Shown: positions 14,513 through 53,874 of the stretch, one piece after another
Position numbering within the stretch: the stretch's first letter is position 1
Layout: every line of letters starts with the position of its first letter
Assembly: GCF_021391675.1 (NCBI RefSeq)
Contig: NZ_CP090095.1
Span: 4,439,001-4,503,000, forward strand
DNA: 64,000 bases
Direction of reading: 5' to 3'
Source: Neorhizobium galegae
GTDB taxonomy: Bacteria > Pseudomonadota > Alphaproteobacteria > Rhizobiales > Rhizobiaceae
Notes under the pieces: generated by a model
Told to the model about the DNA's origin: nothing
The model's input: only the letters and a program-made list of their open reading frames with translations
Database searches by the model: none
Made by a program: the position numbers and the translations under genes

Positions 14513-14524
14513 TTTAGGCTTAAA
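14513..14524 (+). promoter_or_regulatory. recurrent operator-like motif, copy 1 (TTTAGGCTTAAA)
   Basis: 12-bp near-palindrome 55 nt upstream of the aldolase start. It is one of a family of related sites in the window (also 23529, 23706, 31242, 31303, 45046, 53859). Confidence 0.55.
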
Positions 14525-14579
14525 CTTTAATTTGACGCAGGTTTGAAAGCCGTTTCAGCAGACTTCACAAGGTATCCCG

Positions 14580-15335
14580 ATGAGCGACTTCCGCAGGAAA
14601 TGTATTGGCCATGAGCGCGTCATCGGCACATTCGCGGCGATCCCGCATCCGGTCGCAATCGAGGTGACCGCTGCGGCCGGTCTCGATTTCATCTGCGTCG
14701 ACGCCGAACATGCTCAGATCGGCCGCGAGCTGATCGAAAACCTCGTCCGTGCCTCGGATGTCCATCGCGTGCCCGCCATGGTGCGCGTTCCCGGCCACGC
14801 CCCGGAATCGATAGCCGCCGTGCTCGACGCCGGAGCTGCCGGCGTGCTGGTGCCGCGGATCTCGAACGCCGCCCAGGCCAAGGCTGCCGTTCTGGCGACC
14901 CGTTATCCGCCGATCGGCGAACGCGGCGTCGGCCCGGGACGCGCCGCGGGCTACGGCTACCGCATTCCCGACTATCTGAAGTCGGCGAATGAAAGCCTCG
15001 TCCTCGCGATCCAGATCGAGACCGCCGAAGGGCTCGCCAATGTCGAGGAAATTGTCGCCGTCGAGGGCGTCGACGTGGTCTTCATCGGCCCCGGCGACCT
15101 CTCGGTCTCGATCGGCGCAATGGGGCCGGATGGAGCCGAGAAGCTGGATGCGGCCATTCTGACGATCACCAGGGCTGCCCGCAAAGCGGGCAAGGCCGTC
15201 GGCATCTTCCGCCCCTCCGCCGATGACGTCGGAAAATGGTCGGAAGCCGGCATCAGCTTCTATCTGCTCTCAAGCGATACGAGGTTCCTCGGCGCCGGCA
15301 TCGCTGCCGAGGTCGCCACCGCGCGCTCCGCATAA
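14580..15335 (+). CDS. HpcH/HpaI aldolase family protein
   Basis: 251 residues, ATG preceded by AAGGT. Class II pyruvate aldolase TIM barrel: IGTFAAIPHPVAIEVTAAAGLDFICVDAEHAQ (DxEH metal/base region about 33-42), VRVPGHAPESIAAVLDAGAAGVLVPRI, then QIETAEGLANVEEI and VFIGPGDLSVSIG. It should cleave or form 2-keto-3-hydroxy acids or related malyl/citramalyl-type substrates with a divalent metal. The usual catalytic His of HpaI-like enzymes appears kept in DAEHAQ. It is followed 28 nt later by a medium-chain dehydrogenase, probably co-transcribed. Confidence 0.88.
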   Translation: MSDFRRKCIGHERVIGTFAAIPHPVAIEVTAAAGLDFICVDAEHAQIGRELIENLVRASDVHRVPAMVRVPGHAPESIAAVLDAGAAGVLVPRISNAAQAKAAVLATRYPPIGERGVGPGRAAGYGYRIPDYLKSANESLVLAIQIETAEGLANVEEIVAVEGVDVVFIGPGDLSVSIGAMGPDGAEKLDAAILTITRAARKAGKAVGIFRPSADDVGKWSEAGISFYLLSSDTRFLGAGIAAEVATARSA

Positions 15336-15363
15336 GCTGCATCAATTTTCCAGGAGTGACGAC

Positions 15364-16290
15364 GTGAAAGCCATCCAGTACAGCGAACACGGCCCGGCCG
15401 ATGCGATGCATTATGTCGACCTGCCCGATCCGGTCGCCGGACCGGGCCAGATCCTGGTGAAGCTCGAGGCTGCCAGCGTCACGCCTTTCGACTGGAAGCT
15501 CCGCGCCGGACACTTGCAAAGTCACTTCACCCTACCGATGCCGAGTGTGCCCGGCCGCGACGGTGGCGGCACGGTGATCGCCATCGGCGACGGCGTCACC
15601 GAGTTCAAGGTAGGCGACCGGGCCGCGGTCATGGCCGGCGTTTTCGCCCAGGGCGGATATGCGGAAATGATCGCTGTCGATGAAAAGCATGCTGTCAAAA
15701 TTCCGGACAACCTCTCGACCGTCGATGCGGTGGCGCTGACCAATGCCGGCTTGAGCACCTGGATCGCAGTGCGGACTGCGGAAGTCAAATCAGGCGACAA
15801 GGTTCTCGTGCATTCCGGTTCGGGCGCAGTCGGCGGATTGCTGGTCCAGCTCTGCCACCACCTCGGCGCCCACGTCACTGCCACCTGCCGCTCGACCAAT
15901 CGCGACTATGTGCTCGGTCTCGGCGCCGATCGGGTGATCGCCTATGACGAGGATGACTTTTCCGAACGCCTCACCGATCAGGATATCGTCTTCGAACTGA
16001 TGGGCGGCGAAGTCCACGACAAGTCCTACAAGGTGCTCAAGAAGGGCGGCCATATGGTCTGGCTGGTCGCCGACCCGATCAGGGATCGCGGCGAGGAATT
16101 CGGCGTCAAGGTCACCCGGGCGATGATCACCGACGACAAGTCGGCGCTGCAATCAATGATGGATCTCGCCGGCGCCGGCCTGCTCAAGCCCCAGGTTGCC
16201 CGCACCATGCCGCTGTCGGAAGTGGCCGAAGCCCATCGCCTGATGGAAAAAGGCGCCATTTCGCGCGGACGCCTGATACTGACGATGTGA
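15364..16290 (+). CDS. zinc-free medium-chain dehydrogenase/reductase (quinone oxidoreductase-like)
   Basis: 308 residues from GTG 15364, chosen because CAGGAG lies ten bases upstream and the product then begins VKAIQYSEHGPADAM, the standard MDR start. GroES-like domain about 1-120 (GRDGGGTVIAIGDGVTEFKVGD), Rossmann domain with VLVHSGSGAVGGLLVQLCHHLG about 140-161. The structural-zinc cysteines of alcohol dehydrogenases are absent, as in quinone oxidoreductases. It probably reduces an enone or quinone with NADPH. It is convergent with the racemase-like gene, only 6 bp apart. Confidence 0.88.
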   Translation: MKAIQYSEHGPADAMHYVDLPDPVAGPGQILVKLEAASVTPFDWKLRAGHLQSHFTLPMPSVPGRDGGGTVIAIGDGVTEFKVGDRAAVMAGVFAQGGYAEMIAVDEKHAVKIPDNLSTVDAVALTNAGLSTWIAVRTAEVKSGDKVLVHSGSGAVGGLLVQLCHHLGAHVTATCRSTNRDYVLGLGADRVIAYDEDDFSERLTDQDIVFELMGGEVHDKSYKVLKKGGHMVWLVADPIRDRGEEFGVKVTRAMITDDKSALQSMMDLAGAGLLKPQVARTMPLSEVAEAHRLMEKGAISRGRLILTM

Positions 16291-16296
16291 CGTTCT

Positions 16297-17103
16297 TCAG
16301 GTGCCACTCGGAAACAGCGGCGCCTGACGGCCCTTGGCGACAAAAGTCCGGAAATCCTCGATCGCGTGCTCGTTGGCGAGCGCGCAGAACGGCCCGCGAC
16401 TGACCTCTATGCCGTTGATCTTCTGCAGCCGCACGTCCATCTCGGCGCTCTTCAGTGCCACCGCCGCCGTATTGACGACCGGCGCATGCAGGACCTTGAA
16501 CCCGTATTCGCCGCCGACCAGCAGTCCCGGCAGAACGCCTGCCGGCACCACGACGTCGGCGCCGTCGCGCACCAACGGCTCAGCGCAAGCGGTGAAATTG
16601 GCAAGCATCCGCCGCCGCGCGTCTTCGTCGCCCGCAAAGGCGGCGCTGAAATCCGAAGGTTCGCAATTCATGCCGACGACGTGCTTCACCCGGCCGCCGA
16701 GGCCGTAGAGATCGGCCTGCTCGTAATGCCAGGTCTGAAAGACGTCATCGAGGGTGACCAGCGCCATGCGCCGGCCCAGCCGTGCCGCATAATGCATACA
16801 GACCTCGCCGGCGCCGATCACCGGAATGGTCAGCGCCGACTTGAGCTCATAGAGGCCGGGATCCTGGAAATGGCCGATGACGACGGCGTCATATCCACGG
16901 CTCGCCGCCTCCAGCCCGTTGTCGATGGCGATCGCCGCGCAACGGAACTCCGCCAGCCGCCCGAAATGACGGTCCGGCGGGCTGATGCCGAAGACGTCGA
17001 CTGTCGTGCCCGGCTCGGCAATGCTGTTCAGATAGTCCGAGAGCCGCGTCATATAGGCGGCGCTTGCAGTGGCATCGATGAAACTTTGCCAGAAGATGCG
17101 CAT
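16297..17103 (-). CDS. aspartate/glutamate/hydantoin racemase family protein
   Basis: 268 residues from ATG 17103 (GAGGGGAAC upstream). Asp/Glu racemase superfamily: IGHFQDPGLYELKSALTIPVIGAGEVCMHYAA contains the second-half substrate motif, and PAGVLPGLLVGG a later conserved loop. In standard racemases two cysteines act as acid/base; here the first expected Cys position reads GHFQD (His instead) and the second region reads PAGVLPG without Cys. It may therefore be a maleate-isomerase/decarboxylase-like variant or a non-racemase. It is divergent from a MarR-like gene. Confidence 0.78.
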   Translation of the reverse strand: MRIFWQSFIDATASAAYMTRLSDYLNSIAEPGTTVDVFGISPPDRHFGRLAEFRCAAIAIDNGLEAASRGYDAVVIGHFQDPGLYELKSALTIPVIGAGEVCMHYAARLGRRMALVTLDDVFQTWHYEQADLYGLGGRVKHVVGMNCEPSDFSAAFAGDEDARRRMLANFTACAEPLVRDGADVVVPAGVLPGLLVGGEYGFKVLHAPVVNTAAVALKSAEMDVRLQKINGIEVSRGPFCALANEHAIEDFRTFVAKGRQAPLFPSGT

Positions 17104-17130
17104 GTTCCCCTCGTTTCGTTCATTTTCCGG

Positions 17131-17143
17131 GTGCGATTCGCAC
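17131..17143. promoter_or_regulatory. 13-bp palindrome in the racemase/MarR divergent region
   Basis: GTGCGATTCGCAC: perfect 6-bp arms around one central base, 28 nt upstream of the racemase-like start. The short size suits a local regulator. A weaker relative of the window-wide motif, TTTAAGGCTTTA, lies at 17159-17170. Confidence 0.4.
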
Positions 17144-17170
17144 TCGTCAAAACCCCAATTTAAGGCTTTA

Positions 17171-17195
17171 CTCCGGGTACAGAAACACCCCGGAG
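17171..17195 (+). promoter_or_regulatory. hairpin covering the ribosome-binding site of the MarR-like gene
   Basis: CTCCGGG (17171-17177) pairs with CCCGGAG (17189-17195). The right arm includes most of the GGAGAG Shine-Dalgarno serving ATG 17202, so the structure could lower translation. Confidence 0.4.
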
Positions 17196-17201
17196 AGCCG
17201 C

Positions 17202-17744
17202 ATGACTGTGTCGACCACGCCTGAAAACCCGCTGAGCGACACGACCGTCGAGATGTCGGAAGCGGCGCTGACCGAGTTCGAATGGTCGCTCTGGCGAATT
17301 TCCGCCGCCTTCCTGCGGTGGCAGTCGGAAAGTTCAAGCGAGCTTGCCGGCGCGGGCCTGAGCGGCCTCGACACCGCCATCCTGCACACGATCCGTTATC
17401 GCAACAAGCCGAAAGGGCTCGGCGAGATTTCCCGTCTGCTCGGCCGCGACGACACCGCCAACATCCAATACGCCATCAAGAAGCTGCAGACGCTGCAGCT
17501 CATCGAGCGGGTCAAGGGCCGGTCGCGCAAGGACACGCTCTACACGCCGACCCGCAAGGGCACCAAGCTTACCCAGGATTATCGGGCTCTGCGCCGGCAG
17601 CTTCTCGTGTCGCTGATCCAGAAAATGGATCACGCGGAACAGGGGCTTGGCGAGGCGACCGAAATGCTGGAGCTGCTCACGAGCTTCTACGACACCGCCG
17701 CCCGGCGCGTGGCGAGTGGATCTCATCTGGTGGAGCGTTCCTGA
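17202..17744 (+). CDS. MarR-like winged-helix transcriptional regulator
   Basis: 180 residues. N-terminal helices (about 20-55), then winged helix about 60-130: LGEISRLLGRDDTANIQYAIKKLQTLQLIERVK (recognition helix) and the wing RSRKDTLYTPTRKGTKLT. Similar proteins are annotated as winged-helix MarR types associated with amino-acid or aromatic catabolism. It is divergent from the racemase-like gene with a palindrome between. Its 3' end overlaps the convergent cyclase gene by 22 bp. It is one of three MarR-type regulators here and so a candidate for the shared operator. Confidence 0.82.
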   Translation: MTVSTTPENPLSDTTVEMSEAALTEFEWSLWRISAAFLRWQSESSSELAGAGLSGLDTAILHTIRYRNKPKGLGEISRLLGRDDTANIQYAIKKLQTLQLIERVKGRSRKDTLYTPTRKGTKLTQDYRALRRQLLVSLIQKMDHAEQGLGEATEMLELLTSFYDTAARRVASGSHLVERS

Positions 17745-23528: not shown

Positions 23529-23540
23529 TTTAAGCATAAA
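23529..23540. promoter_or_regulatory. recurrent operator-like motif, copy 2 (TTTAAGCATAAA)
   Basis: Part of TTTTAAGCATAAAA, 49 nt upstream of the SRPBCC start (reverse strand). Confidence 0.55.
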
Positions 23541-23705: not shown

Positions 23706-23717
23706 TTTAGGCTTGAA
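23706..23717. promoter_or_regulatory. recurrent operator-like motif, copy 3 (TTTAGGCTTGAA)
   Basis: 162 nt upstream of the system B SBP start; differs from copy 1 by one base. Confidence 0.5.
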
Positions 23718-31241: not shown

Positions 31242-31253
31242 TTTAGACCTAAA
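31242..31253. promoter_or_regulatory. recurrent operator-like motif, copy 4 (palindrome GTTTAGACCTAAAC at 31241-31254)
   Basis: Perfect 6-bp arms GTTTAG/CTAAAC around AC. On the reverse strand the core reads TTTAGGTCTAAA, 97 nt upstream of the EthD-like start. Confidence 0.55.
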
Positions 31254-31302: not shown

Positions 31303-31314
31303 TTTAAGCTTCAA
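31303..31314. promoter_or_regulatory. recurrent operator-like motif, copy 5 (TTTAAGCTTCAA)
   Basis: Between the divergent EthD-like and amino-acid SBP genes, about 197 nt upstream of the SBP start. Confidence 0.45.
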
Positions 31315-33084: not shown

Positions 33085-33600
33085 CTATTCGAAGGCGGCG
33101 CCGGAAAGGTGGTTGTTGGCGGAGGTCTTGACCGTGCCGATCTCCGCCCAGAGCGCCGCAACCGCATGCGGGTCGATATCCGCCATCATGTCCTGCAGCC
33201 AGCCTTCGTGCGCCGCGGCCATCGCCGCAAACAGTGTCACACCCGCCTCGGTGAGTTTTGCGACCGTCACGCGCCGGTCGCCCTGCGGCGTCACCCGCTG
33301 GACGTAACCATCGGCTTCGAGCCTCTCGACGAGCCCGGTGACATTGCCGTTGGTGACCATGGTGCGCTTGGAGAGCTCGCCGAGGCGAAGCCCGTCCTTC
33401 TCGCGATAGAGCTGTGCCATCAGGTCGAACTGCGGCAGCGTCGCGCCGAATTCGGCACGCAGGCGGCGACGGATTTCCTGGCTGATCAGCTTGGTCGTGG
33501 ACAGCATCCGCAACCACAGGCGCAGCTCGGGCTTCGACCGCCCGTGGGCGCCCTGGACGATGATCTCCAGATCGACGTCGATCGCTTCCGCTTCTGCCAT
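33085..33600 (-). CDS. MarR family transcriptional regulator
   Basis: 171 residues. Classic MarR layout: helices 1-2 (LWLRMLSTTKLISQEIRRRL), winged helix about 60-130 (QFDLMAQLYREKDGLRLGELSKRTMVTNGNVTGLVERLEADGYVQRV; wing PQGDRRVTVAKLTEAG), C-terminal dimer helices. It is divergent from the second cyclase gene. A near-perfect palindrome 42 bp upstream (33642-33656) is its probable operator, and a close copy lies at 53637-53650, so it may also act at that region. Confidence 0.92.
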   Translation of the reverse strand: MAEAEAIDVDLEIIVQGAHGRSKPELRLWLRMLSTTKLISQEIRRRLRAEFGATLPQFDLMAQLYREKDGLRLGELSKRTMVTNGNVTGLVERLEADGYVQRVTPQGDRRVTVAKLTEAGVTLFAAMAAAHEGWLQDMMADIDPHAVAALWAEIGTVKTSANNHLSGAAFE

Positions 33601-34053
33601 TCCGAATATTGCCTCTGTAGCCGATCCACCGTCTAGAAGTAGATATTTGAAATGTCAAAGGTTCGTGCTCTGACGGTCCTTCAGGGATGGTGCCCGCAAA
33701 TCCATATGGCTGCCCCGATGATCACCGCATCACCAGCCGTCTTCCCCGTCCCGTTATTTATTCATATGCATACATTTTCTGAAAACTGCATCAAGAGCAG
33801 GCAATCTGTCGATAAGCGGACCGCTACTCATGCTTGCCCTTCACCGAGTCCGCAACAGGCTATTTCTCACGGAAGTGATCGATGTTCTTCCGTAGGGATC
33901 GAGCACGTGAATTTGCTCGACGCAGCTTCGCCCAATTGCTTGCATCCTCATATTTTCTGCAATAGGCTTCCTCATCGTTCAGCGGCATCCGGAGAGGAAA
34001 ACCGGCTGCCGCGCGGCTTAACGAAACCGGTCATTCAAGGGGAACCCGGCACC
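33601..34053. other. 453-bp divergent region between MarR and the second cyclase gene
   Basis: A frame open through most of this region joins the cyclase, but it has no ribosome site and no family similarity, whereas ATG 34054 follows AAGGGGAACC. I read it as a long leader with regulatory sites: the MarR-like palindrome at 33642-33656 and a CATATGCATAC element at 33763-33773. Confidence 0.55.
33642..33656. promoter_or_regulatory. candidate MarR operator (GATATTTGAAATGTC)
   Basis: 7-bp arms with one mismatch around a central G, directly upstream of the MarR gene. 13 of 14 bases from 33643 match 53637-53650. Confidence 0.5.
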
Positions 34054-34836
34054 ATGTCTTCCACAACGCTCACCACTCTCGCTTCCGCTCTCCTCTCCGG
34101 CTCGGTCAAGGTCGTCGACCTGACGGCGCCGCTCGGGCCGGATACCCCCGTTCTTTACCTGCCGCCGCAGTTCGGCAAGAACACGCCGAAGGTCGCCGTC
34201 CACACGATCTCCGAATACAACGAGGACGGTCCGTTCTGGGCCTGGAACTGGCTGGAACTCGGCGAACACACCGGCACCCATTTCGATGCGCCATGTCATT
34301 GGATCACCGGCAAGGACAAACCGAACAACACGACCGACACTATCCCGCCGCAGAATTTCGTGGCACCGGTCAACGTCATCGACCGTTCCAAGGAAGCCGC
34401 CGAAAACCCGGATTATCTGCTCACTGTCGACAGCATCAAGGAATGGGAAGCCGAGCATGGCGCGATCGAGGCCGGCAGCTGGGTGCTGATGCGCTCCGAC
34501 TGGTACAAGCGCAACGGCTCGACCGAAACCTTCCTGAATGCCGACGAGAACGGCCCGCATTCTCCCGGCCCGACCGCCGAAGCGATCCAATACCTGATTT
34601 CGAAGGACATTGTCGGCTGGGGCCAGGAAACCATCGGCACCGATGCCGGCTCGGCCGGCGGCATGAACCCGCCCTTCCCGGCCCATAACCTCATGCACGG
34701 CGCCGGCAAATACGGCCTTGCATCGCTGTCGAACCTCGACCAGCTGCCGCCGAAGGGCGCCGTGCTGATCGCCGCACCGCTGAAGCTCGTCAAGGGCACC
34801 GGTTCGCCGGTCCGTGCGCTGGCTCTGATCGCCTGA
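34054..34836 (+). CDS. cyclase family protein (kynurenine formamidase / isatin hydrolase fold), paralogue 2
   Basis: 260 residues from ATG 34054. Metal motif GEHTGTHFDAPCHW about residues 70-83, then VLMRSDWYKR, GPHSPGPTAEAI, IGTDAGSAGGMNPPFPAH, and the C-terminal QLPPKGAVLIAAPLKL. Paralogue of the 17723-18514 product, though with clear differences, so the two may handle different amides or lactams. Its link to a MarR gene and a CrtI-like oxidoreductase suggests a catabolic step such as isatin or formylkynurenine hydrolysis. A terminator follows the stop. Confidence 0.88.
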   Translation: MSSTTLTTLASALLSGSVKVVDLTAPLGPDTPVLYLPPQFGKNTPKVAVHTISEYNEDGPFWAWNWLELGEHTGTHFDAPCHWITGKDKPNNTTDTIPPQNFVAPVNVIDRSKEAAENPDYLLTVDSIKEWEAEHGAIEAGSWVLMRSDWYKRNGSTETFLNADENGPHSPGPTAEAIQYLISKDIVGWGQETIGTDAGSAGGMNPPFPAHNLMHGAGKYGLASLSNLDQLPPKGAVLIAAPLKLVKGTGSPVRALALIA

Positions 34837-34902: not shown

Positions 34903-36492
34903 ATGGCGGATTTCGACTACATCATCGTCGGCAGCGGCATCAACGCACTGGTCGCCGCCGCCATGCTCGGTAAGAAGGGCAAGAAGGTTCTCGTGCTGGA
35001 ACGCAGCGAACGCATCGGCGGCTGCCTGCGCACGGAAGAGATCACCGAGCCGGGCTTTATCCACGACGTGATGGCCACCACCATGGTGCTGTTCCTCACC
35101 TCGCCCGCCTATGGCGCACTCGGCAAGGATCTCGAGGCCCGCGGCCTGGAATTCGCCCATGCCGACCTGCCGACCGGCGTGCTGCGCCCGGACGGTTCTT
35201 CCGTCATCTTCTCAAAAGATCGCCAGCGCAATATCGCGACGTTCGAGGCACTCGCGGCCGGCGACGGCAAGACTTTCGACAAGGAAATGAACGTTCTCGG
35301 CGCCGATGCCGCCTTCCTGTTTTCACTGCTCGGCGGCGCACTCTGGTCCGGCACGACGCTGAAGACAGTCGCCAAACAGGGCTGGGGCATGGGCCTGCGC
35401 CAACTCGCCGCCTGGTTCGGCGATGCGCTGACACCGGCGCGCGGTTATCTCGAAACCACCTACAAATCCGAGGCGGCGCACGCCCTCTGGGCGCCCTGGG
35501 TCCTGCATTGCGGCCTGGCGCCGGAAAGCGCCTATTCGGCCGAAATGCTGAAGGTCATCGGTTTTGCGATCGAGCTCGCCGGCTGCCCGATCGTCAAGGG
35601 CGGCGCGGCCAACCTCGTCGCGGCTTTCGAACGGCTGATCACGGATCAGGGCGGCGCGATCCGCACTGGCGCGGATGTCGAACGTATCCTTCCCGGCCCA
35701 GGCAACAGGGCCGCCGGGGTAAGGCTTGCAAACGGCGAGACGATCGAAGCTGCAGCCGGCGTGGTCTGCTCCACGACGCCGAACCAGATCTATGACCGGC
35801 TGCTGAAGGACTGGCCGCAGCCGGCACCCGCCGAAATCCGGGAAAGCGTCGCCCGCTATCGCTACGGCAAGGGCAATATGCAGATCCACTACGCCCTCTC
35901 CGCACCACCGCGCTGGAGAGGCGATCCGGATCTCGCCAAGGTGGCGCTGCTGCACCTGACATCCGGCCTCGACGGCGTCTCGCGCGCCACCAACGAATGC
36001 GAACGCGGGCTGCTGCCCGCCGAGCCGACCGTCTGCGTCGGCCAGCCCGCCAGCTTCGATCCTTCGCGTGCGCCGGACGGCAAGTCGATACTCTGGCTGC
36101 AGCTTCCCGAAGCGCCGCGTTTCATCAAGGGCGATGCGGCCGGTGAGATCGCCGCACCTGCCGACGGCCGCTGGACCGACGAGCTGCGCGAACTTTATGC
36201 CGACCGCGTCGAGGCTCTGCTTTCCCGCCACATCGGGAATTTTGCCGAGATCAAGCTCGCCCGCCGGGCCTATTCTCCGGCCGATCTGGAGGCGATGAAC
36301 AGGAACCTTGTCGGCGGCGATCCCTATGGCGGCTTCTGCGGGCTCGACCAGTTTTTCCTCTGGCGGCCCTTCAAGTCGTCTGTTAACCACCGCACCCACG
36401 TGCCGGGCCTTTATCATATCGGCGCCTCGACCCATCCGGGACCGGGGCTTGCCGGCGGCTCGGGCTTTCTGCTCGCATCGTCGCTGCGTTGA
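34903..36492 (+). CDS. FAD-dependent oxidoreductase, phytoene-desaturase (CrtI)-like
   Basis: 529 residues. N-terminal dinucleotide motif YIIVGSGINALVAAAMLGKKGKKVLVLER (residues about 6-34) followed by the second CrtI element RIGGCLRTEEITEPGFIHDV. The C-terminal FAD motif is GLYHIGASTHPGPGLAGGSGFLLASSL. The Ser-Ala region between fits the NAD(P)/FAD oxidoreductase group annotated as phytoene dehydrogenase-like, which in bacteria lacking carotenoid clusters usually acts on other substrates. No crtB or crtE is nearby. It could dehydrogenate a ring or side chain in the local pathway. Confidence 0.87.
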   Translation: MADFDYIIVGSGINALVAAAMLGKKGKKVLVLERSERIGGCLRTEEITEPGFIHDVMATTMVLFLTSPAYGALGKDLEARGLEFAHADLPTGVLRPDGSSVIFSKDRQRNIATFEALAAGDGKTFDKEMNVLGADAAFLFSLLGGALWSGTTLKTVAKQGWGMGLRQLAAWFGDALTPARGYLETTYKSEAAHALWAPWVLHCGLAPESAYSAEMLKVIGFAIELAGCPIVKGGAANLVAAFERLITDQGGAIRTGADVERILPGPGNRAAGVRLANGETIEAAAGVVCSTTPNQIYDRLLKDWPQPAPAEIRESVARYRYGKGNMQIHYALSAPPRWRGDPDLAKVALLHLTSGLDGVSRATNECERGLLPAEPTVCVGQPASFDPSRAPDGKSILWLQLPEAPRFIKGDAAGEIAAPADGRWTDELRELYADRVEALLSRHIGNFAEIKLARRAYSPADLEAMNRNLVGGDPYGGFCGLDQFFLWRPFKSSVNHRTHVPGLYHIGASTHPGPGLAGGSGFLLASSLR

Positions 36493-36512
36493 AGCGAGGC
36501 GGCTTAGGAGAG

Positions 36513-37031
36513 ATGGATTTCATGGCAGAACGGTTTTCAGGCGTGGTGCTGCGCTGGCATCAGGAGGGCGATCAGGAAAATCGGCCGACCATGGGCGAGA
36601 TCGGCCTCAATCACTTCGCACCCTACCTGATGAACCGCATCATCTCCCGCTGGAACTCCAACATGGCGGAGGAACTGCGCGAATACGACTTGTCGACCGC
36701 CAAGATGCGCACACTCGCGGTCCTTAGCGTCTCTGCTTCGCTCACCATCAACGAGCTTTCCGTGTTCGCGGTCATCGAACAGTCGACCATGAGCCGCACG
36801 CTCGATTCCCTCGAGGACCAGGGTTACATCCGCCGCACGCCCCGTGCCGAGGACATGCGCATCCGCGATGTGACGATCACCGAGGAAGGCCGCGCCGCCT
36901 TTGGGCGCTTCTGGCCGACCATGTACGATTCACTGCTGCGGATGTTCGACGGCATCGACGAGGAGGAATACCGCGCCTTCACGGGCACGCTTCACAAGAT
37001 CCTCCTCAACATCCGCAAGCACGAGATCTGA
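36513..37031 (+). CDS. MarR family transcriptional regulator
   Basis: 172 residues if translation begins at ATG 36513; ATG 36522 is also possible, and the upstream TTG is unlikely. MarR winged helix about 45-125: MRTLAVLSVSASLTINELSVFAVIEQSTMSRTLDSLEDQGYIRR, wing EDMRIRDVTITEEG, and C-terminal dimer helix (LLRMFDGIDEEEYRAFTGTLHKILLNI). It lies 20 nt after the CrtI-like gene and is probably co-transcribed. It is convergent with atvA. It has no palindrome of its own nearby and is a candidate regulator for the recurrent motif. Confidence 0.9.
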   Translation: MDFMAERFSGVVLRWHQEGDQENRPTMGEIGLNHFAPYLMNRIISRWNSNMAEELREYDLSTAKMRTLAVLSVSASLTINELSVFAVIEQSTMSRTLDSLEDQGYIRRTPRAEDMRIRDVTITEEGRAAFGRFWPTMYDSLLRMFDGIDEEEYRAFTGTLHKILLNIRKHEI

Positions 37032-41037: not shown

Positions 41038-41086
41038 CAGCAAAAGCAACGGGATCGCGGCTATAATGTGTCTGTATGCTTAAAAC

Positions 41087-42634
41087 CTAAAGCGTGGACA
41101 CGGTCTTCAGCGCCCCGTCCAGCGCAATTCCGCTTTCGTCCAGGAGTGCCGCTTGGCGCAGGCGCTTCATCCAGGCCGCACCGTCGTCGCGGTCCGCCAA
41201 GGTCGTCAGCGCCGACATCACCCGGTCGAACTTCGAGAGCCCGCGCGCATGGGTATCGGAATAGCCCTTCACCAGCCGGCGATTGTTGATCACTTCCACT
41301 GCGAGATCATAGTTCCGGGGGAGCAGCGAGGTTGCCGCGTCGAGCCAGGCTTCGCGATGCTCGGTTTCGCGTGAGTGACGCAGCGTGCCGCGACGGGTAC
41401 GGCGCAAGGCTGCCAGCGTGTAGAGCGTCAGAAACCAGAACAGCGTGCCGGTCTGCACTCGGCGGCCCTTGTTGATGCGGCGGTCGAGCCAGGCGAAAAC
41501 CTTCGGGCGGTTTTCGACCCAGAGACCGAGCCGCTTCGGCATGGTCCCAACGACCTCTTCCATGCGCGGATGCATGTATTCGGTCATGTAGAGGATCTGA
41601 TCCTGCTTCACGCCGACTTCCTTGGCGACGCGGTCGAACCGGGTGCCGCGAGTCTTGAGATCCGCGACGCGGATCACGTCGTCGTAGGCCATGGCGACGG
41701 CGACGTATTTAGCGGACTGGACGGTGAAGGCATAGTCGCGATCCTCGCCGCCATTGGCACGGTCGAGCACATGAAGTTTGCCGACCCGATCGAGATATTC
41801 GCTGGCATAGGCCGGATCCTGGAAATCCGTGAGCTTCTTGACCCCGGCAAACAGCAGCGGCCAGGCGACCTCGGGGAATTCGGCGCGCATGCGATGCACC
41901 AGCCGATCGAGGTCCGGATGGCCGGCGGTTTCCGGCATCACGTCGAAACGCTTCGGCGCCGAGGCGGTGACTTCGTCCCGCGGCTTGGCCTTGGTGCGTT
42001 CATAGGCAGCATTGAAGGCACGCAGGCTGGGCTCGACGCCCTTGCCGCCGCCGCGAATGGTCGCCTCGAAAGCTTCCTTCGGGAAAGGCAGCACGTCGGC
42101 CGCGGCAAGTGCGCCGAACATCGAGGCAGAAATCACGCTGCCGTTTTTCGTTGCCAGCGTATCCATATCGAAGGCGATGGTGCGTCTGGCGGCGAAGTCG
42201 GTCGCGCCGACCACCACCGTCGGATCGCCGATACCGTCGCCCGGCTTCTCTTTCTCGCCGACCGCGAAGGAACGATGCGTCGAGGCGATCAGCGTGGTCT
42301 TGTCCGGCGTGACGAGCCCGCGCAGCACGGAGCGGCCGGCTTCCATCAACTCGGCGGCAAGCACGACATCCACATCGCCCGGCGTCGGCATCAGCGAAAA
42401 GATCGGCGATACGCCGTCGCGGGCCGGCAGCATCTCGATGTAGTAGATCGTCGCACCCGTGCGCTGGGCGACACCCGGCACCGAGGTCGACTGCGCCATC
42501 CAGCCCTGTTCTTCGGCAAGGCCAACGATCCAGTCGGCGAGCACGCCGCCGCCCTGGCCGCCCATGGCCATGATGGCAAGCGCCAGCGGCTTGTCGGAAG
42601 CGTAGAGCGCCTTGAGGTTCACGGTCTCGTTCAT
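41087..42634 (-). CDS. indolepyruvate:ferredoxin oxidoreductase beta subunit-like protein with DUF6537-type extension
   Basis: 515 residues, much longer than classic IorB (about 190). The N-terminal third is the pyruvate-ferredoxin oxidoreductase gamma-type domain (IMAMGGQGGGVLADWIVGLAEEQG; STSVPGVAQRTGATIYYIE). The rest matches the extension found in alphaproteobacterial indolepyruvate oxidoreductases (LTDFQDPAYASEYLDRV; VKQDQILYMTEYMHPRMEEV). With the alpha subunit it would decarboxylate indolepyruvate or another aryl-pyruvate to the CoA ester, passing electrons to ferredoxin. It starts 3 nt after the alpha-subunit stop. No ferredoxin gene is adjacent. Confidence 0.88.
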   Translation of the reverse strand: MNETVNLKALYASDKPLALAIMAMGGQGGGVLADWIVGLAEEQGWMAQSTSVPGVAQRTGATIYYIEMLPARDGVSPIFSLMPTPGDVDVVLAAELMEAGRSVLRGLVTPDKTTLIASTHRSFAVGEKEKPGDGIGDPTVVVGATDFAARRTIAFDMDTLATKNGSVISASMFGALAAADVLPFPKEAFEATIRGGGKGVEPSLRAFNAAYERTKAKPRDEVTASAPKRFDVMPETAGHPDLDRLVHRMRAEFPEVAWPLLFAGVKKLTDFQDPAYASEYLDRVGKLHVLDRANGGEDRDYAFTVQSAKYVAVAMAYDDVIRVADLKTRGTRFDRVAKEVGVKQDQILYMTEYMHPRMEEVVGTMPKRLGLWVENRPKVFAWLDRRINKGRRVQTGTLFWFLTLYTLAALRRTRRGTLRHSRETEHREAWLDAATSLLPRNYDLAVEVINNRRLVKGYSDTHARGLSKFDRVMSALTTLADRDDGAAWMKRLRQAALLDESGIALDGALKTVSTL

Positions 42635-42637
42635 CGA

Positions 42638-44794
42638 TCAAGCCTCCGCGAACACGACGCGGCCGGCGGCACGGCGGGCCTGCAGCCAGCCGATCACCGA
42701 AGCGCGGAATTTCGAGAGGAACTTGTCCCAACCGGTCGGATTCATGATCACATCGGCGCGGTAGAAGGATGGACAGAGAACGGCGGCCTCGGAAACCTCG
42801 CCGCAATTGCCGCAGCCGACGCAGCTATTGTCGATCGCCGCGACCGGATCGTCTTTCAAAGGATCGTCCGTGTGTTTGACCGACAGCGACGGGCAGCCCG
42901 ACAGCCGGATGCAGGCGTGATCGCCGGTGCAGACATCCTCGTCCACCCCGAAACGCTCCTTCACCATACGCTTGCCGTCCTTGACCGCCTGGCTGAACTG
43001 CGGCTTCACGCGACGCTGCTTGTTCAGCATGCATTCGGAAGAGGCGACGATGATCTTCGGGCCTTTTTCCTTGCTCGTCAGCGCCTCCTTCAGCGTGTCG
43101 CGCATCTTGGCGACATCATAGGTGCGGTCGATCTGGCGCACCCAGGTGGCTCCGATGCCCTTTACCGCATTGACGATCGAATTGTTGGTCTTGCGGTTCG
43201 GGTTGATCGCCCGTGACGACAGGATGTCCTGGCCGCCGGTCGCCGCCGAATAGAAATTGTCGACGACGAGGATGACGCCGTCCTGCTTGTTGAACACCGC
43301 ATTGCCGACCGAGGTCGCAAGGCCGTTGTGCCAGAAGCCGCCATCGCCCATGACCGCGATCGAGCGCTTGTCCGCCTCGACATTGAAGGCAGAAGCGGAA
43401 GCCGGGCCGAGGCCGTAGCCCATGGTGGTGCCGCCGATATTGAACGGCGGCAGGATCGAGAACAGATGGCAGCCGATATCGGCCGAGACATGATGTTCGC
43501 CGAGTTCCTTTTCGACCAGTTTCATGGCCGCAAAGATCGGCCGCTCCGGACAGCCGGTACAGAAACCAGCCGGACGTGCCGGCACGACTTCGGCCAGAGC
43601 CTTCACCTTGGGGTCGTTGAGAACATCGCTCGGATCCGGCACCGGCGGCTGGTTGCCGAGAAGCAGTCGGTCATACTTCTCGATGAAGGTCTTCAGCCCC
43701 TTCATCATCACGGGCGCGGTATACTCGCCACCGAGCGGCAGGATGTCCTTGCCGTGCAGGCGCGTCTGGATATCGCGACGGCGCATCAGCGTATGGAGCG
43801 TCTGCTCGACATATTCCGGCGCGCCTTCTTCCACCATGATCACGGCTTTCTTGCCGAGACAGAAATCGACCACCTCGTCGTCGATCGTCGGGTAGGCGAC
43901 GTTCATCACGTAGATCGGCACCGACGAATTGCCGTAGACATCCGCCAGGCCGAGCTGCTGCAGGCCGCGCATGACGCCATTATAGAGACCGCCGAGCGTG
44001 ATGATGCCGATCTCGCCTTCTTCGGGGCCAAAGAACTCGTTGAGCTTCTTCTCCTTGATAAAGTTGACGGCAGCCGGCCAGCGGCGCTCCAGCTTGTCCT
44101 TCTCCTGCCCGAAATTCGCCGGCGGCAGGACGATGCGGTTGACGTCACGGACCGGGTTTTCGAGCGCCTCGCGGAGCGTGAACTTTGGCCGCTGGTTATC
44201 CTTGGCGACGAACTGGCCATGCACGTGACAGGCGCGGATGCGTACCTCCAGCATGACAGGGGTGTTGGAGGCTTCCGAAAGCTGGAAGCCATCTTCCACG
44301 GCCTGAACCATTGCCGACAGGTTGGGACGCGGGTCGAGAAGCCACATCTGCGACTTCATCGCAAACGCATGGCTGCGTTCCTGCATGATCGAAGAACCTT
44401 CGCCGAAATCCTCGCCGAGGATGATCAGCGCGCCGCCATTGACGCCGCCGGAAGACAGGTTGGAAAGCGCGTCCGACGCGACATTGGTACCGGCCGTCGA
44501 TTTCCATGTCACGGCGCCGCGCACCGGATACATCACCGAGGCAGACAACATCGCCGCCGCTGCCGCTTCCGAGGCCGAGGTCTCGAAATGAACCCCGAGA
44601 TCCTCCATGATGTCCTTGGCATCGGCCAGTACGTCCATCAGATGCGAGATCGGTGAGCCCTGGTAACCGCCGACATAGGAAACGCCGGATTGCAGCAGCG
44701 CCTTGGTGATGGCGAGAATGCCTTCCCCGCGGAAAATCTCGCCTTCTCCTAGTTTGAGATCTTCGACTTCGCGCGCAAAAGATCGCTCGGCCAT
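42638..44794 (-). CDS. indolepyruvate:ferredoxin oxidoreductase alpha subunit-like protein
   Basis: 718 residues from ATG 44794 (GAAGGGGAACTGCC upstream). Order: pyrimidine-binding domain (GYQGSPISHLMDVLAD; FETSASEAAAAAMLSAS), central domain (GIITLGGLYNGVMRGL), TPP domain (FCTGCPERPIFAAMK; GDGGFWHNGLATSVGNAVF with the TPP-Mg motif) and two C-terminal cysteine clusters (CTGDHACIRLSGCPSL; CVGCGNCGEVSEAAVLC) for 4Fe-4S centres. This is the IorA layout. It is divergent from the aryl-CoA monooxygenase operon, which supports an indole-to-anthranilate theme. Aryl-pyruvate specificity is inferred. Confidence 0.92.
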   Translation of the reverse strand: MAERSFAREVEDLKLGEGEIFRGEGILAITKALLQSGVSYVGGYQGSPISHLMDVLADAKDIMEDLGVHFETSASEAAAAAMLSASVMYPVRGAVTWKSTAGTNVASDALSNLSSGGVNGGALIILGEDFGEGSSIMQERSHAFAMKSQMWLLDPRPNLSAMVQAVEDGFQLSEASNTPVMLEVRIRACHVHGQFVAKDNQRPKFTLREALENPVRDVNRIVLPPANFGQEKDKLERRWPAAVNFIKEKKLNEFFGPEEGEIGIITLGGLYNGVMRGLQQLGLADVYGNSSVPIYVMNVAYPTIDDEVVDFCLGKKAVIMVEEGAPEYVEQTLHTLMRRRDIQTRLHGKDILPLGGEYTAPVMMKGLKTFIEKYDRLLLGNQPPVPDPSDVLNDPKVKALAEVVPARPAGFCTGCPERPIFAAMKLVEKELGEHHVSADIGCHLFSILPPFNIGGTTMGYGLGPASASAFNVEADKRSIAVMGDGGFWHNGLATSVGNAVFNKQDGVILVVDNFYSAATGGQDILSSRAINPNRKTNNSIVNAVKGIGATWVRQIDRTYDVAKMRDTLKEALTSKEKGPKIIVASSECMLNKQRRVKPQFSQAVKDGKRMVKERFGVDEDVCTGDHACIRLSGCPSLSVKHTDDPLKDDPVAAIDNSCVGCGNCGEVSEAAVLCPSFYRADVIMNPTGWDKFLSKFRASVIGWLQARRAAGRVVFAEA

Positions 44795-44862
44795 GGCAGT
44801 TCCCCTTCGCCTTGTCGGCTTCAATCCATAATCATTTGCAAAAGCATATTTTCGACACCCGC

Positions 44863-44954: not shown

Positions 44955-44970
44955 ATATGCTAATGCATAT
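44955..44970. promoter_or_regulatory. inverted repeat ATATGC-TAAT-GCATAT
   Basis: Perfect 6-bp arms. The AATGCATA part (44962-44969) also occurs at 14444-14451 in the GntR/aldolase divergent region, and ATGCATA at 33766-33772. It could be a shared GntR-type site. Confidence 0.4.
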
Positions 44971-45045: not shown

Positions 45046-45057
45046 TTTAAACTTAAA
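45046..45057 (+). promoter_or_regulatory. recurrent operator-like motif, copy 6 (TTTAAACTTAAA)
   Basis: 35 nt upstream of the aryl-CoA monooxygenase start, a position that would overlap a promoter or block initiation. Confidence 0.5.
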
Positions 45058-45092: not shown

Positions 45093-47435
45093 ATGCGCAT
45101 CGTCTGTATCGGTGGCGGCCCGGCCGGTCTCTATTTCGCGCTCCTGATGAAGAAGCTGCATCCCGAGCATTCCATTTCCGTTGTCGAGCGCAACAAGCCT
45201 TACGACACGTTCGGCTGGGGCGTCGTCTTCTCCGATGCCACCATGGTGTCGATGAAGGCGTGGGACCCGGAAAGTGCGGCCGAAATCGAGGACGCCTTCA
45301 ACCACTGGGACGATATCGAGCTGCTGTTCAAGGGCACGCGCCAGCGCACCTCCGGCCACGGCTTTGTCGGCATTGGCCGCAAGAAGCTCTTGAACATCCT
45401 GCAGCGCCGCTGCGAGGCGCTCGGCGTCGAGCTTGTTTTTGAAACCGATTCCAACGGCGATGTCGACTATCCGGATGCGGACCTGATCATCGCGTCGGAC
45501 GGTTTCAACTCGAAGATCCGCAACCGTTATCCGGAGGTCTTCGAACCGGATCTCGTCGTGCGTCCGAACCGCTATATCTGGCTCGGCACAAACAAGCTGT
45601 TCGACGCCTTCACCTTCGACTTCCGCAAGACGGATCACGGCTGGTTCCAGGCGCATATCTACAAGTTCGACGACCAGACCTCGACCTTCATCGTCGAAAC
45701 GACGGAAGAAGCTTACGAAAAGCACGGCCTCGGCCAGATGGACCAGCAGGGCTCGATCGATTTCTGCCAGGACCTGTTCTCGGAAGTCCTCGAAGGCTCC
45801 GAACTGATGACCAATGCCCGGCACCTGCGCGGCAGCGCCTGGCTCAACTTCAACCGCCTGATCTGCGGCAAGTGGAGCCATTTCAACGGTAACTCGCATG
45901 TCGTGCTGATGGGTGATGCCGCCCATACCGCCCATTTTGCGATCGGTTCCGGCACCAAGCTCGCCATCGATGACGCGATCGAGCTCAGCAACCAGTTCAA
46001 CAAGCTCGGCCATTCGAAGGACAAGATCCCGGAAGTCCTCGAAACCTACGAGGAAATCCGCCGCGTCGACGTCGCCCGCATCCAGAATGCCGCCCGCAAC
46101 GCCATGGAATGGTTCGAAGTGGTTGGCCAGCGTTATGCCGATACGCTGGAGCCGGAACAGTTCATGTATTCGATGCTGACCCGCTCGCAGCGCATCAGCC
46201 ACGAGAATCTTCGCCTGCGCGACCCAAAATGGCTGGAGGGTTACGAGCGCTGGTTCGCGAGGAAAAACGGCATCGAGGTGAACGGCAACGGCCGCACCCT
46301 GCCGCCGATGTTTACGCCCTATTCGCTGCGCGAAACCCATCTGCCGAACCGTATCGTCATGTCGCCGATGGCCATGTACTCCGCCAGGGACGGGCTGCTG
46401 GACGATTTCCATCTGGTCCACCTCGGCTCCCGCGCGCTCGGCGGCGCCGGCCTCGTGTTTGGGGAAATGACCTGCGTCTCGCCCGACGCCCGCATCACTC
46501 CCGGCTGCCTCGGCCTCTGGAACGAGGAACAGGCGGCCGCCTGGAAACGCTTCGTCACCTTCGTACATGACAATTCAGGCGCCAAGGTCGGCATCCAGCT
46601 GGGTCATGCGGGCCGCAAGGGCTCGACCAAGGTTGCCTGGGAAGGTATCGACCAGCCGGTCGAAGAAGGCGGCTGGGATCTGATCTCGGCCTCTGCTCTG
46701 CCCTACCTCAAGATCGGCCAGGTTCCGAAGGCTATGGATCGCGCCGACATGGATCGTGTCATCGCCGACCATATGCGCTCCGCAAAGTTCGCGGCCGAAG
46801 CCGGTGCGGATTGGTTGGAGCTGCACTGCGCCCACGGTTATCTTCTGTCGAGCTTCCTTTCGCCGCTCACCAATATCCGCACCGACGAATACGGCGGCAG
46901 CCATGAAAACCGCGCGCGTTATCCGCTGGAAGTCTTCAAGGCGGTCCGCGAGGTCTGGCCGCAAAACAAGCCGATCTCCGTGCGGCTCTCCTGCCATGAC
47001 TGGTTCGAAGGCGGCAACACGCCGGAAGACGCGGCGATCTACGCGCAGATGTTCAAGGATGCCGGTGCCGACCTGATCGACTGCTCGTCCGGCCAGGTAT
47101 GGAAGGAAGAAAAGCCGGTCTATGGCCGCCTCTTCCAGACGCCCTTCTCCGACAAGATCCGCAACGAAATCGGCATTCCGACCATCGCCGTCGGCGCGAT
47201 TTCGGAGGCCGATCATGCGAACTCGATCATCGCCGCCGGCCGCGCCGATCTCTGCGCCGTCGCCCGCCCGCATCTTGCCGATCCGGCCTGGGTTCTGCAT
47301 GAAGCGGCAAAGATCGGCCTGAAGGACATTCCCTGGCCAAAACAATATTATTCCGGCAAGGCGCAATACGAGACCAACCTCGCGCGCGCTGCGGCAGCCG
47401 TTGCCCCTCTGGCTGTCGGCCCGGCGGCGAAATAA
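45093..47435 (+). CDS. bifunctional aryl-CoA monooxygenase / OYE-type reductase (2-aminobenzoyl-CoA monooxygenase/reductase or salicylyl-CoA 5-hydroxylase type)
   Basis: 780 residues from ATG 45093 (AAGGAGG nine bases upstream; the TTG at 45087 is rejected). The N-terminal half (about 1-390) is a class A flavin monooxygenase: VCIGGGPAGLYFALLMKK at 4-21 and GDAAHTAHFAIGSGTKLAIDDA near 275. The C-terminal half (about 400-770) is an old-yellow-enzyme domain: FTPYSLRETHLPNRIVMSPM, LGHAGRKGS, HCAHGYLLSSFLSP with catalytic His, and CAVARPHLADP. This fusion is known from the Azoarcus evansii 2-aminobenzoyl-CoA pathway, where one protein hydroxylates and then reduces the ring. It heads an eight-gene operon with beta-oxidation-like genes and RidA. 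Whether the substrate is the 2-amino or 2-hydroxy compound cannot be read from the sequence. Confidence 0.9.
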   Translation: MRIVCIGGGPAGLYFALLMKKLHPEHSISVVERNKPYDTFGWGVVFSDATMVSMKAWDPESAAEIEDAFNHWDDIELLFKGTRQRTSGHGFVGIGRKKLLNILQRRCEALGVELVFETDSNGDVDYPDADLIIASDGFNSKIRNRYPEVFEPDLVVRPNRYIWLGTNKLFDAFTFDFRKTDHGWFQAHIYKFDDQTSTFIVETTEEAYEKHGLGQMDQQGSIDFCQDLFSEVLEGSELMTNARHLRGSAWLNFNRLICGKWSHFNGNSHVVLMGDAAHTAHFAIGSGTKLAIDDAIELSNQFNKLGHSKDKIPEVLETYEEIRRVDVARIQNAARNAMEWFEVVGQRYADTLEPEQFMYSMLTRSQRISHENLRLRDPKWLEGYERWFARKNGIEVNGNGRTLPPMFTPYSLRETHLPNRIVMSPMAMYSARDGLLDDFHLVHLGSRALGGAGLVFGEMTCVSPDARITPGCLGLWNEEQAAAWKRFVTFVHDNSGAKVGIQLGHAGRKGSTKVAWEGIDQPVEEGGWDLISASALPYLKIGQVPKAMDRADMDRVIADHMRSAKFAAEAGADWLELHCAHGYLLSSFLSPLTNIRTDEYGGSHENRARYPLEVFKAVREVWPQNKPISVRLSCHDWFEGGNTPEDAAIYAQMFKDAGADLIDCSSGQVWKEEKPVYGRLFQTPFSDKIRNEIGIPTIAVGAISEADHANSIIAAGRADLCAVARPHLADPAWVLHEAAKIGLKDIPWPKQYYSGKAQYETNLARAAAAVAPLAVGPAAK

Positions 47436-47445
47436 GGATCGCGTC

Positions 47446-48258: not shown

Positions 48259-48301
48259 TCGGCCTCGGCATGAACCAGGGAATGAAAACCGGGAGATCAG
48301 G

Positions 48302-48748: not shown

Positions 48749-48808
48749 CCCCGGGAGAGGTCCTGCCGCCCGGAAAGGGACGGTCGATGAAAAGGAGAGG
48801 AGACGGAT

Positions 48809-49651: not shown

Positions 49652-50826
<1,175 letters not shown>

Positions 50827-50834
50827 GGACGATC

Positions 50835-51266: not shown

Positions 51267-51639
51267 AGGCTGGGCAAAACCGATCGGTTACGCCAACGGC
51301 GTCGCCGCCAACGGCCGCCAGGTCTTCGTCGGCGGGCAGATCGGCTGGAATGGCCAATGCCAGTTCGAGACCGACGATTTTGTCGGCCAGGTCAGGCAGA
51401 CGCTGCAGAACGTCGTCGCCGTGCTGGCCGAGGCCGGCGCCGGACCCGAGCACATCACCACCATGACCTGGTATTTTACCGACAAGGCCGAATATCTCGG
51501 CAACCTGAAGGGCATCGGCCAGGTCTACCGGGAAATCATCGGCAAGCACTTTCCGGCCATGGCCGCGATGCAGGTCGTGGCGCTGGTGGAAGACCGCGCC
51601 AAGATCGAAATCCAGGCCACCGCCGTCATTCCGTCCTGA
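51244..51639 (+). CDS. RidA family protein (reactive enamine/imine deaminase)
   Basis: 131 residues, typical RidA/YjgF length. Conserved features: IGYANGVAANGRQVFVGGQIGW, ETDDFVGQVRQTLQNVVAVLAEAGAGPEHITTMTWYF and PAMAAMQVVALVEDRAKIEIQATAV. The catalytic Arg usual in RidA near residue 105 is not obvious in this segment (KHFPAMAAMQVV), so it may be a diverged group. RidA hydrolyses enamines, and placing it between the aryl-CoA monooxygenase and beta-oxidation genes suggests removal of the ring amino group after dearomatisation. That is an inference supporting an anthraniloyl-CoA substrate. Confidence 0.9.
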   Translation: MHTILQPEGWAKPIGYANGVAANGRQVFVGGQIGWNGQCQFETDDFVGQVRQTLQNVVAVLAEAGAGPEHITTMTWYFTDKAEYLGNLKGIGQVYREIIGKHFPAMAAMQVVALVEDRAKIEIQATAVIPS

Positions 51640-51646
51640 GGCAGTC

Positions 51647-53608: not shown

Positions 53609-53636
53609 GCGCTGCCAGACAAAAAGAAGCCTATAA

Positions 53637-53650
53637 ATATTTGAAATATC
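53637..53650. promoter_or_regulatory. second copy of the candidate MarR site
   Basis: ATATTTGAAATATC, 13/14 identical to 33643-33656 in front of the MarR gene at 33085-33600. Confidence 0.45.
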
Positions 53651-53727
53651 TATGATATTCTGATTGGCTCGGCGCTTCGGAAGCGCTTCCGCGCGCCGGT
53701 GATTTGCCCAGCCAAAAGAGTTACGCT

Positions 53728-53754
53728 CATTTGATCAAACATGCTTGCATGTTT
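53728..53754. promoter_or_regulatory. TTGATCAAA element overlapping an 18-bp palindrome
   Basis: CATTTGATCAAAC (53728-53740) is the exact 13-mer found at 10654-10666 (reverse strand) next to the FCD-type GntR gene. It overlaps AAACATGC-TT-GCATGTTT (53737-53754), perfect 8-bp arms, so two proteins might compete here. Confidence 0.45.
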
Positions 53755-53854
53755 CCTTAAATCGCCTATTGTTTGCCCAAGCCTCGCAAGTAGGCATCTC
53801 AAACAACGACTGGGAACGCTGCGTGCTCACACTTTCAGAGCTAACTCCGTCTAG

Positions 53855-53874
53855 ATATTTTAGGCATAAAATAT
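53855..53874 (+). promoter_or_regulatory. recurrent operator-like motif, copy 7 (best palindrome)
   Basis: ATATTTTA-GGCA-TAAAATAT, perfect 8-bp arms, core TTTAGGCATAAA at 53859-53870, 53 nt upstream of the SBP start. It is the most symmetric member of the motif family. Confidence 0.6.

Follow-up and report, generated by a model that had tools for sequence, protein, structure and literature searches.

CouR of Rhodococcus jostii is a MarR repressor of p-hydroxycinnamate catabolism that is released by an aroyl-coenzyme A (aroyl-CoA) intermediate, according to the available portion of PMC4737184. For IadR (MarR_73) of the Variovorax iad loci, which direct the degradation of the auxin indole-3-acetic acid (IAA), a 24 bp site has been described in the stretch that separates iadR from iadA, and the second MarR protein of iad loci, IadR2 (MarR_50 or MarR_Bj2), does not bind IAA; the accessible sections of PMC9613470, the source of both statements, give neither a ligand nor a DNA site for MarR_50. 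Loss of IAA in Variovorax requires the Rieske oxygenase pair iadD/iadE, which also suffices for it. The roles assigned there to IadF-J are those of an acyl-CoA synthetase, a ketothiolase, an alcohol dehydrogenase, an amidase and a dehydrogenase (PMC12633357, in the part available). Neither a named MarR protein for 2-aminobenzoyl-CoA nor the operator described below was found in searches of the open-licence literature, and the portion of PMC10374108 at hand holds nothing on the regulator. The 12-mer TTTAAGCTTAAA turns up in one paper, PMC6352095. A stretch of 64,000 nucleotides of the Neorhizobium galegae genome (contig NZ_CP090095.1, positions 4,439,001 to 4,503,000), termed the window throughout, was compared with these systems. 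It contains a catabolic region with three MarR genes, here MarR1 to MarR3, and a palindromic motif that recurs before several of its genes and operons and is a candidate operator of MarR2.

The proposed type A operator in the window and in other genomes

The motif is real. An earlier note on the window had listed seven main copies, at 14513, 23529, 23706, 31242-31253, 31303, 45046 and 53859, and all were recovered at exactly these coordinates. The consensus, TAT-TTTA-N4-TAAA-ATA, is here designated type A, and as judged from genome comparison it is well supported as the putative shared operator of one local MarR protein. With up to two mismatches allowed, TTTARGCWTAAA had 17 strand matches in the window against 1.94 expected, the maximum in 100 shuffles being eight. 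Across the genome (6,049,186 bases) all three exact matches to TTTARGCWTAAA fall inside the window, which makes up 1% of the genome, as do seven of the 17 distinct places with at most one mismatch and five of the seven distinct places for TTTARNNHTAAA. The reversed pattern is commoner genome-wide (43 against 23 strand matches for TTTARGCWTAAA, 39 against 11 for TTTARNNHTAAA) and, with at most one mismatch, has no match in the window. The family-wide count of TTTARNNYTAAA, which depends strongly on base composition, was inspected by eye only.

Counts within the window alone are biased, because the motif had been picked from this same window. An independent test was made with a symmetrised weight matrix derived from the abmG promoters of 27 further genomes, all but one from other genera (27 exact sites, 15 of them distinct; neither the window nor G047 and L109-L111, its near relatives, contributed). 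The matrix does not depend on G204, the training genome of the window's own genus, since its omission leaves the same 15 distinct sites. Applied to the window, it placed the seven sites at ranks 1-7 (32.7, 26.7, 24.5, 22.6, 20.9, 20.2 and 14.7), the position at rank 8 scoring 9.3. In a 400 kb control from the same genome one position exceeded 14 (24.3 at C1:3325767, L103:5767), and shuffles of the window had on average 0.03 positions scoring 14 or more and never more than one. Intergenic bases, as delimited by a simple GC3-based gene caller, numbered 5,550 in the window and 48,780 in the control. The motif is thus not equally frequent elsewhere, as judged by pattern counts over the genome and by the matrix over 400 kb. 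The single high-scoring control site is flanked by an SBP_bac_6 transporter operon on one side and a UvrD-like gene on the other.

The best site (45046..45057, score 32.7) precedes the abmG operon, at a promoter with a TTGACG box; its left arm overlaps the -10 region expected there. The second (53859..53870, 26.7) stands before ATP-binding cassette (ABC) system D, which has a family 5 solute-binding protein (SBP) and M20 peptidases; here the letters at 53855-53874 read ATATTTTA-GGCA-TAAAATAT, and the perfect 8+8 palindrome, with a centre of 4 nt, is as the earlier note had it. The G047 stretch has no match to this SBP (SBP5D) and no site matching 53859. Rank 3 (23529..23540, 24.5) is 55 nt from 23479, before the operon 23051-/CoA-ligase/OsmC/thiolase/ChsH2-SDR/SDR, where SDR denotes a short-chain dehydrogenase/reductase; its 12-mer is unchanged in G047, which belongs to the same genus. 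Rank 4 (14513..14524, 22.6), with one position of the control as good or better, precedes an HpcH/HpaI-family aldolase gene (14580+); an identical 12-mer stands before HpcH in G047, and TTTAAACATAAA before an HpcH gene of L112 whose product is 84% identical. The site at 31242..31253 (20.9, rank 5) precedes an EthD-like gene on the minus strand (ATG 31144), and its counterpart in G047 has diverged to TTTAAACTTATA. Rank 6 (23706..23717, 20.2) precedes ABC system B (SBP family 5), and the 12-mer is identical in G047 and in L048, a plasmid of Neorhizobium sp. SOG26; on this plasmid the MarR1/ligase/ABC system B segment recurs, and the 23706-type site is kept. The weakest accepted site (31303..31314, 14.7, rank 7) lies before an SBP family 3 gene (31368+), at the position of which G047 has TTTAAGCTTAAA.

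With start codons chosen by us among the candidates, the distance from operator centre to start is 41.5-63.5 nt at five sites, 103.5 nt at the EthD-like gene and about 168 nt at the SBP gene of system B if this starts at 23880, and on these starts all seven sites are intergenic, as had been proposed. Two weaker relatives that had been listed with them did not survive matrix scoring: 17159 scored 2.1, with 68 control positions as good, and 21375 scored 5.9, with 18. A near-match at 41073/41080, absent from the earlier list, was likewise rejected on its weak scores of 0.6 and 8.7.

A palindrome search covering nine gene sets placed TTTA-N4-TAAA at the top for abmG promoters outside the window and its near relatives, with 22 of 29 against 0.6 expected from block shuffles. 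In a larger set of 34, searched up to 200 nt upstream, the palindrome was exact in 27 (G204 among them), carried one mismatch in four and two in one, and was missing from two. With the near relatives set aside, 35 of 38 abmG promoters reached at least 14 with the matrix, a figure in which 27 of the 38 are training rows and G204 is of the same genus; eight of the 11 promoters that had no part in training also scored at least 14, L150, L154 and L177 failing. Conservation in orthologous promoters thus holds for the abmG site, and comparison of sequences supports conservation across genera above all there; for the other six sites it was seen mainly in relatives of the same genus, G047 keeping those at 14513, 23529, 23706 and 31303 and L048 that at 23706, with one further case at an HpcH gene of L112.

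The arrangement of the abmG promoters is also constant, in that TTGAC precedes the operator at 26 of the 27 exact sites with a gap of 19-23 nt between hexamer and operator, and site 45046 shares this layout. Such a gap puts the left arm over the expected -10 region and carries the right arm downstream of it. A position over the -10 region and the start, as predicted here, would suit a repressor.

Proposed regulators of the two operator classes

The same search in promoters of IorA, the IadA-like gene, returned TTTA-N4-TAAA in 22 of 93 and a different palindrome, ATGC-N4-GCAT, in 16 of 93 against 0.2 expected. This led to a second predicted operator class, ATATGC-N4-GCATAT (type B), which is found before IadA-like and isatin hydrolase genes and tracks MarR3. 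Its best copy in the window, TATGCTAATGCATA at 44956..44969 in the abmG/IorA intergenic region, is an exact match to TATGC-N4-GCATA and scores 33.7, a value reached by no position of the 400 kb control; the others lie at 44835..44848 (27.9), before IorA (start about 44800, minus strand), and at 33759..33772 (23.2), between MarR2 on the minus strand and the isatin hydrolase gene on the plus strand. The control maximum for the type B matrix is 15.6. Plain TATGC-N4-GCATA with two mismatches is not in excess across the window (10 matches, 14.2 expected).

MarR3 (36489..37031, plus strand), an IadR-like MarR protein, is the proposed regulator of the type B sites. Its best PDB sequences are 3cjn (1.2e-41) and 7kym (7.6e-26), the latter a Bradyrhizobium japonicum protein according to the part of PMC11630574 available. 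In the tree it groups with MarR3-like proteins from iad-type loci of Bradyrhizobium, a clade with good support (98/96), whereas the join of this clade to Variovorax IadR is unsupported (34/65). Among 111 regions, type B is present in 57 of the 59 with MarR3 (at least 45% identity) against 15 of the 52 without, and six of those 15 hold a relative at 35-38% (Bradyrhizobium L133, L136, L137, L140 and L146; L144). The earlier proposal of one regulator for a local regulon is therefore borne out in part: the comparison supports an operator shared within the region and read by a MarR protein, and the second class, tied to MarR3, means that the whole region is not under a single regulator. By eye, a palindrome ATGAAATTTCAT was also noticed upstream of IorA in betaproteobacterial loci (L155, L156, L160, L162, L167, L171, L174, L158, L172 and L176), where it is perhaps the IadR site.

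For type A the best candidate is MarR2 (33085..33600, minus strand), which has a MarR winged-helix domain (Pfam MarR_2/MarR; PF12802, 1.3e-11; PF01047, 3.6e-11). We would put at about three in four the probability that MarR2 is the repressor acting at type A and is relieved by a lower-pathway metabolite. As MarR2 and MarR3 usually occur together, the discordant genomes matter most. Six genomes (G003, G061, G092, G137, G140 and G204) lack both MarR3 (threshold 1e-30) and IorA (1e-50); in all six the MarR2 stretch carries a type A site (22.4-35.7; none of 100 dinucleotide shuffles was as good) and no type B site scoring at least 15. Since type A persists where MarR3 and IadA are both absent, the motif fits MarR2 and not MarR3. 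abmG is present in five of the six, and in four the MarR2-type gene is a neighbour of abmG or part of a lower-pathway gene run: type A stands between divergent abmG and MarR2 in G092 and G204, MarR2 comes after the abm operon in G061, and in G137 the site precedes an SDR-MarR2-enoyl-CoA hydratase run. The occurrence of MarR2 and type A with abmG present and IadA absent, in five of the six, suggests that the effector would be a lower-pathway compound.

The reverse arrangement was found in G207, G085 and G046, where the MarR3 locus has type B without type A and the abmG promoter has type A without type B. In these genomes a MarR2-type gene lies 0.8-1.9 kb from the abmG promoter, inside the abm operon in G085 and G046, whereas in G207 it is on the abmG strand, 1.9 kb upstream. 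Eighteen regions have a MarR2-type gene and no MarR3 match, and type A is present in 15 of them and type B in one; type B itself occurs in 38 of the 58 regions with MarR2 at 38% identity or more and in 34 of the 53 without. The segment VTNGN(V/I)TGLVERLE is common to nine of 13 aligned MarR2-type proteins, those of G204, G137, G020 and G102 differing.

Several observations weigh against MarR2. Type A was found in 50 of the 58 regions with a MarR2-type protein (at least 38%) and in 29 of the 53 without, a weak contrast. Fisher P values over the 111 regions overstate the associations, because the regions share ancestry; a number of genomes are represented twice, and at 38-55% identity a protein was assigned to MarR2 by best match only. 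For some of the 29 regions MarR2 lies elsewhere in the genome; the L152 genome has type A (16.9) and no MarR2 homologue at 1e-15, and G018 has a strong abmG site (29.6) with MarR2 homologues of only 42-44%. Eight of the 58 regions have no type A site of at least 14 (L133, L136, L137, L140, L144, L163, L165 and L170), although L163, L165 and L170 reach 13.9; the four Bradyrhizobium regions L133, L136, L137 and L140, with a MarR2-type protein present, have type B only. The G003 site, flanked by unrelated genes for a transhydrogenase and a LacI-type protein, may be due to chance, and that genome has no abmG; in G140 separate contigs carry MarR2 and abmG. In the window, the promoter of MarR2 itself holds no type A site of 9 or more. 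Among the nine gene sets, type A ranked first only for abmG and IorA and was outside the top ten for the isatinase (63 promoters), SBP3 (9), MarR2 (28) and MarR3 (43) sets; those for HpcH, SBP5D and the flavin reductase (flavred), with three, one and one members, were too small. Lastly, a MarR2 paralogue in the window's genome could be the true or a joint regulator.

It is conceivable, though improbable, that another protein binds type A, namely this paralogue, MarR1 or an unlinked one. The paralogue (C1:228800) is 81% identical to MarR2 and shares its recognition-helix segment. Its cluster comprises a benzoate-CoA-ligase-like gene (TIGR02262, 370 bits, cut-off 375) and two ABC ATPase-like matches, and an A-like site precedes the ligase-like gene (16.5 in the window's genome, 25.8 in G140 and 19.5 in G047), so that the regulon, claimed to be local, is probably not strictly so. 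On the other side, MarR2-type genes lie less than 7 kb from abmG in 14 of the 44 regions that hold abmG. MarR1 (17202..17744, plus strand, HTH_27) occurs together with a conserved type A site in L048, where neither MarR2 nor MarR3 is present in 41 kb; it was nevertheless not favoured, since among the fetched regions its close relatives (89-94%) are confined to G047 and L048, the others being at 33-40%, and type A spans many genera.

That MarR3 binds type A, as one auxin-type regulator for everything, was suggested by the isatin hydrolase and by its apparent kinship to IadR: none of the three MarR proteins matches the B. japonicum IadR structure 7kym better, and type A is present in 51 of 59 regions with MarR3 against 28 of 52 without. 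This is very unlikely and was set aside, as the MarR3-less genomes retain type A, MarR3 follows type B instead, and the MarR3 loci of G018, G207, G085 and G046 have type B and no type A of at least 14. Least credible of all is a mere recurring AT-rich promoter element without a shared regulator, for although in abmG promoters the expected -10 region is reached by the left arm, and the TAAA arm resembles, by eye, a -10 box in some betaproteobacterial and Bradyrhizobium IorA promoters, the site is a palindrome with both arms conserved, the right one beyond the expected box; one position of the 400 kb control reaches 14, and the reversed pattern of the same composition has no match in the window.

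A variant palindrome, TTTGA-N4-TCAAA, was seen in seven of 28 MarR2 promoters outside the near relatives, and in the window it corresponds to TTTGAAATGTCAAA at 33646-33663; it is possibly an autoregulatory site.

Genes of the catabolic region

As judged from its predicted genes, the region appears to serve the breakdown of an isatin-like aromatic compound related to plant hormones, and it resembles the iad locus for auxin degradation. The isatin hydrolase gene (33652..34836, plus strand; PDB 4j0n, E 2.7e-120) probably starts near 34060, as the match begins at residue 138. The IorB/IorA-like pair (41087..44800, minus strand) comprises homologues of IadB/IadA of the 2-oxoacid:ferredoxin oxidoreductase type, and IorA is 99% identical in loci of Rhizobium sp. 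CF080 and Neorhizobium galegae bv. officinalis. L109 and L110 carry TTTAAGCATAAA at the corresponding position behind IorB, and its window copy scores low.

The product of abmG (45093..47435, plus strand) is a monooxygenase of the salicylyl-/2-aminobenzoyl-CoA type; it matches NF006101 (PRK08255, bifunctional salicylyl-CoA 5-hydroxylase/oxidoreductase) with 1339 bits at a cut-off of 1078, and the neighbouring genes suggest 2-aminobenzoyl-CoA as its substrate. It is followed by genes for an SDR, a cupin, an enoyl-CoA hydratase, an acyl-CoA dehydrogenase, a thioesterase-like protein, a RidA-like protein and a 3-hydroxyacyl-CoA dehydrogenase.

Identities to the Variovorax locus L180 are 66% for IorA, 48% for IorB, 44% for the ligase, 67% for the thiolase-like protein, 47% for ChsH2-SDR and 62% for the SDR. 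The last four genes are in the same order as in the L180 block, which there lies downstream of IorA/IorB, and would be the counterparts of IadF-J. An IadDE-type oxygenase pair was sought and is not apparent, for which reason the region was not filed as an iad locus: a search of the window's entire genome gave no match to the beta-subunit family PF00866 (IadE-type) and one to the alpha-subunit family PF00848, at C1:991277, unlinked and about 3.4 Mb from the window. A retro-aldol cleavage of the thiolase/ChsH2 type may convert a 3-hydroxy-oxindole-acetyl-CoA to isatin.

The peptide-type ABC system at 53928-62008, preceded by a type A site and accompanied by two M20 peptidase genes, is a possible importer and hydrolase for amino-acid conjugates, which may be taken up and then hydrolysed by the M20 enzymes. 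The catabolic region also includes, at 37037-40986, a VirJ-domain gene (37037-38407) and a gene at 38404-40986 that is tentatively labelled mprF.

Proposed control and comparison with known systems

If MarR2 is the type A repressor, a dimeric winged-helix MarR2 would, in the absence of inducer, occupy the -10 region and start of the seven promoters and block RNA polymerase. Accumulation of a lower-pathway metabolite, most likely 2-aminobenzoyl-CoA (or anthranilate), would release it, and the ring-degrading abmG operon would be induced jointly with the CoA-ligase/thiolase operon, the genes for the aldolase and the EthD-like protein, and three uptake systems. MarR3 would act through type B on IorA/B and on the intergenic region between the isatin hydrolase gene and MarR2, and with this separate control the pathway would be controlled in two tiers. 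The full picture, an alphaproteobacterial 2-aminobenzoyl-CoA sensor formed by MarR2 and TTTA-N4-TAAA under MarR3, in an iad-like pathway without an IadDE-type pair and aimed at oxidised or conjugated auxin, is tentative and on balance doubtful. If this reading of MarR2 and MarR3 is true, the target would be the plant's auxin waste, taken up by peptide-type ABC importers and processed by M20 hydrolases, and not free IAA; the gene content likewise suggests rhizobia that degrade breakdown products of auxin rather than auxin. A concrete operator with a named regulator candidate is now at hand for catabolism of the 2-aminobenzoyl-CoA type in many rhizobia, and a second operator is offered for an IadR-like protein.

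MarR2 would resemble CouR in working as a MarR dimer on inverted repeats, which recur at several promoters within a single aromatic-acid regulon (PMC4737184, available portion). The two differ in that the CouR box, cATTGA-N5-TCAATg, overlaps the -35 region in the same source, whereas TTTA-N4-TAAA lies at the expected -10 region and start; release by aroyl-CoA is described there for CouR itself, whereas both binding and effector are conjectured for MarR2.

With IadR the window shares a MarR gene beside IadA-type genes, as in the Variovorax iad loci of PMC9613470 (accessible sections), and MarR3 appears to be a relative of B. japonicum IadR; it differs in that MarR3 appears tied to type B and not to type A. 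Near-matches to type A before iadA in Variovorax/Pseudacidovorax (TTCAGGTCTAAA or TTCAGATCTAAA in L181-L183, three of six loci) were discounted as weak support, the matrix maximum over L180-L184 and L186 being at most 9.6.

MarR2 may correspond to IadR2, in which case type A would supply a DNA site to test. The Bradyrhizobium MarR2-type proteins are, however, only 40-44% identical to MarR2, the helix segment differs in the one that was aligned, and of the five B. japonicum-type loci with such a protein L146 has a type A site and the other four lack it. MarR regulons of this kind are already known; the two-operator layout and the apparent absence of the oxygenase pair add interest to the present locus.

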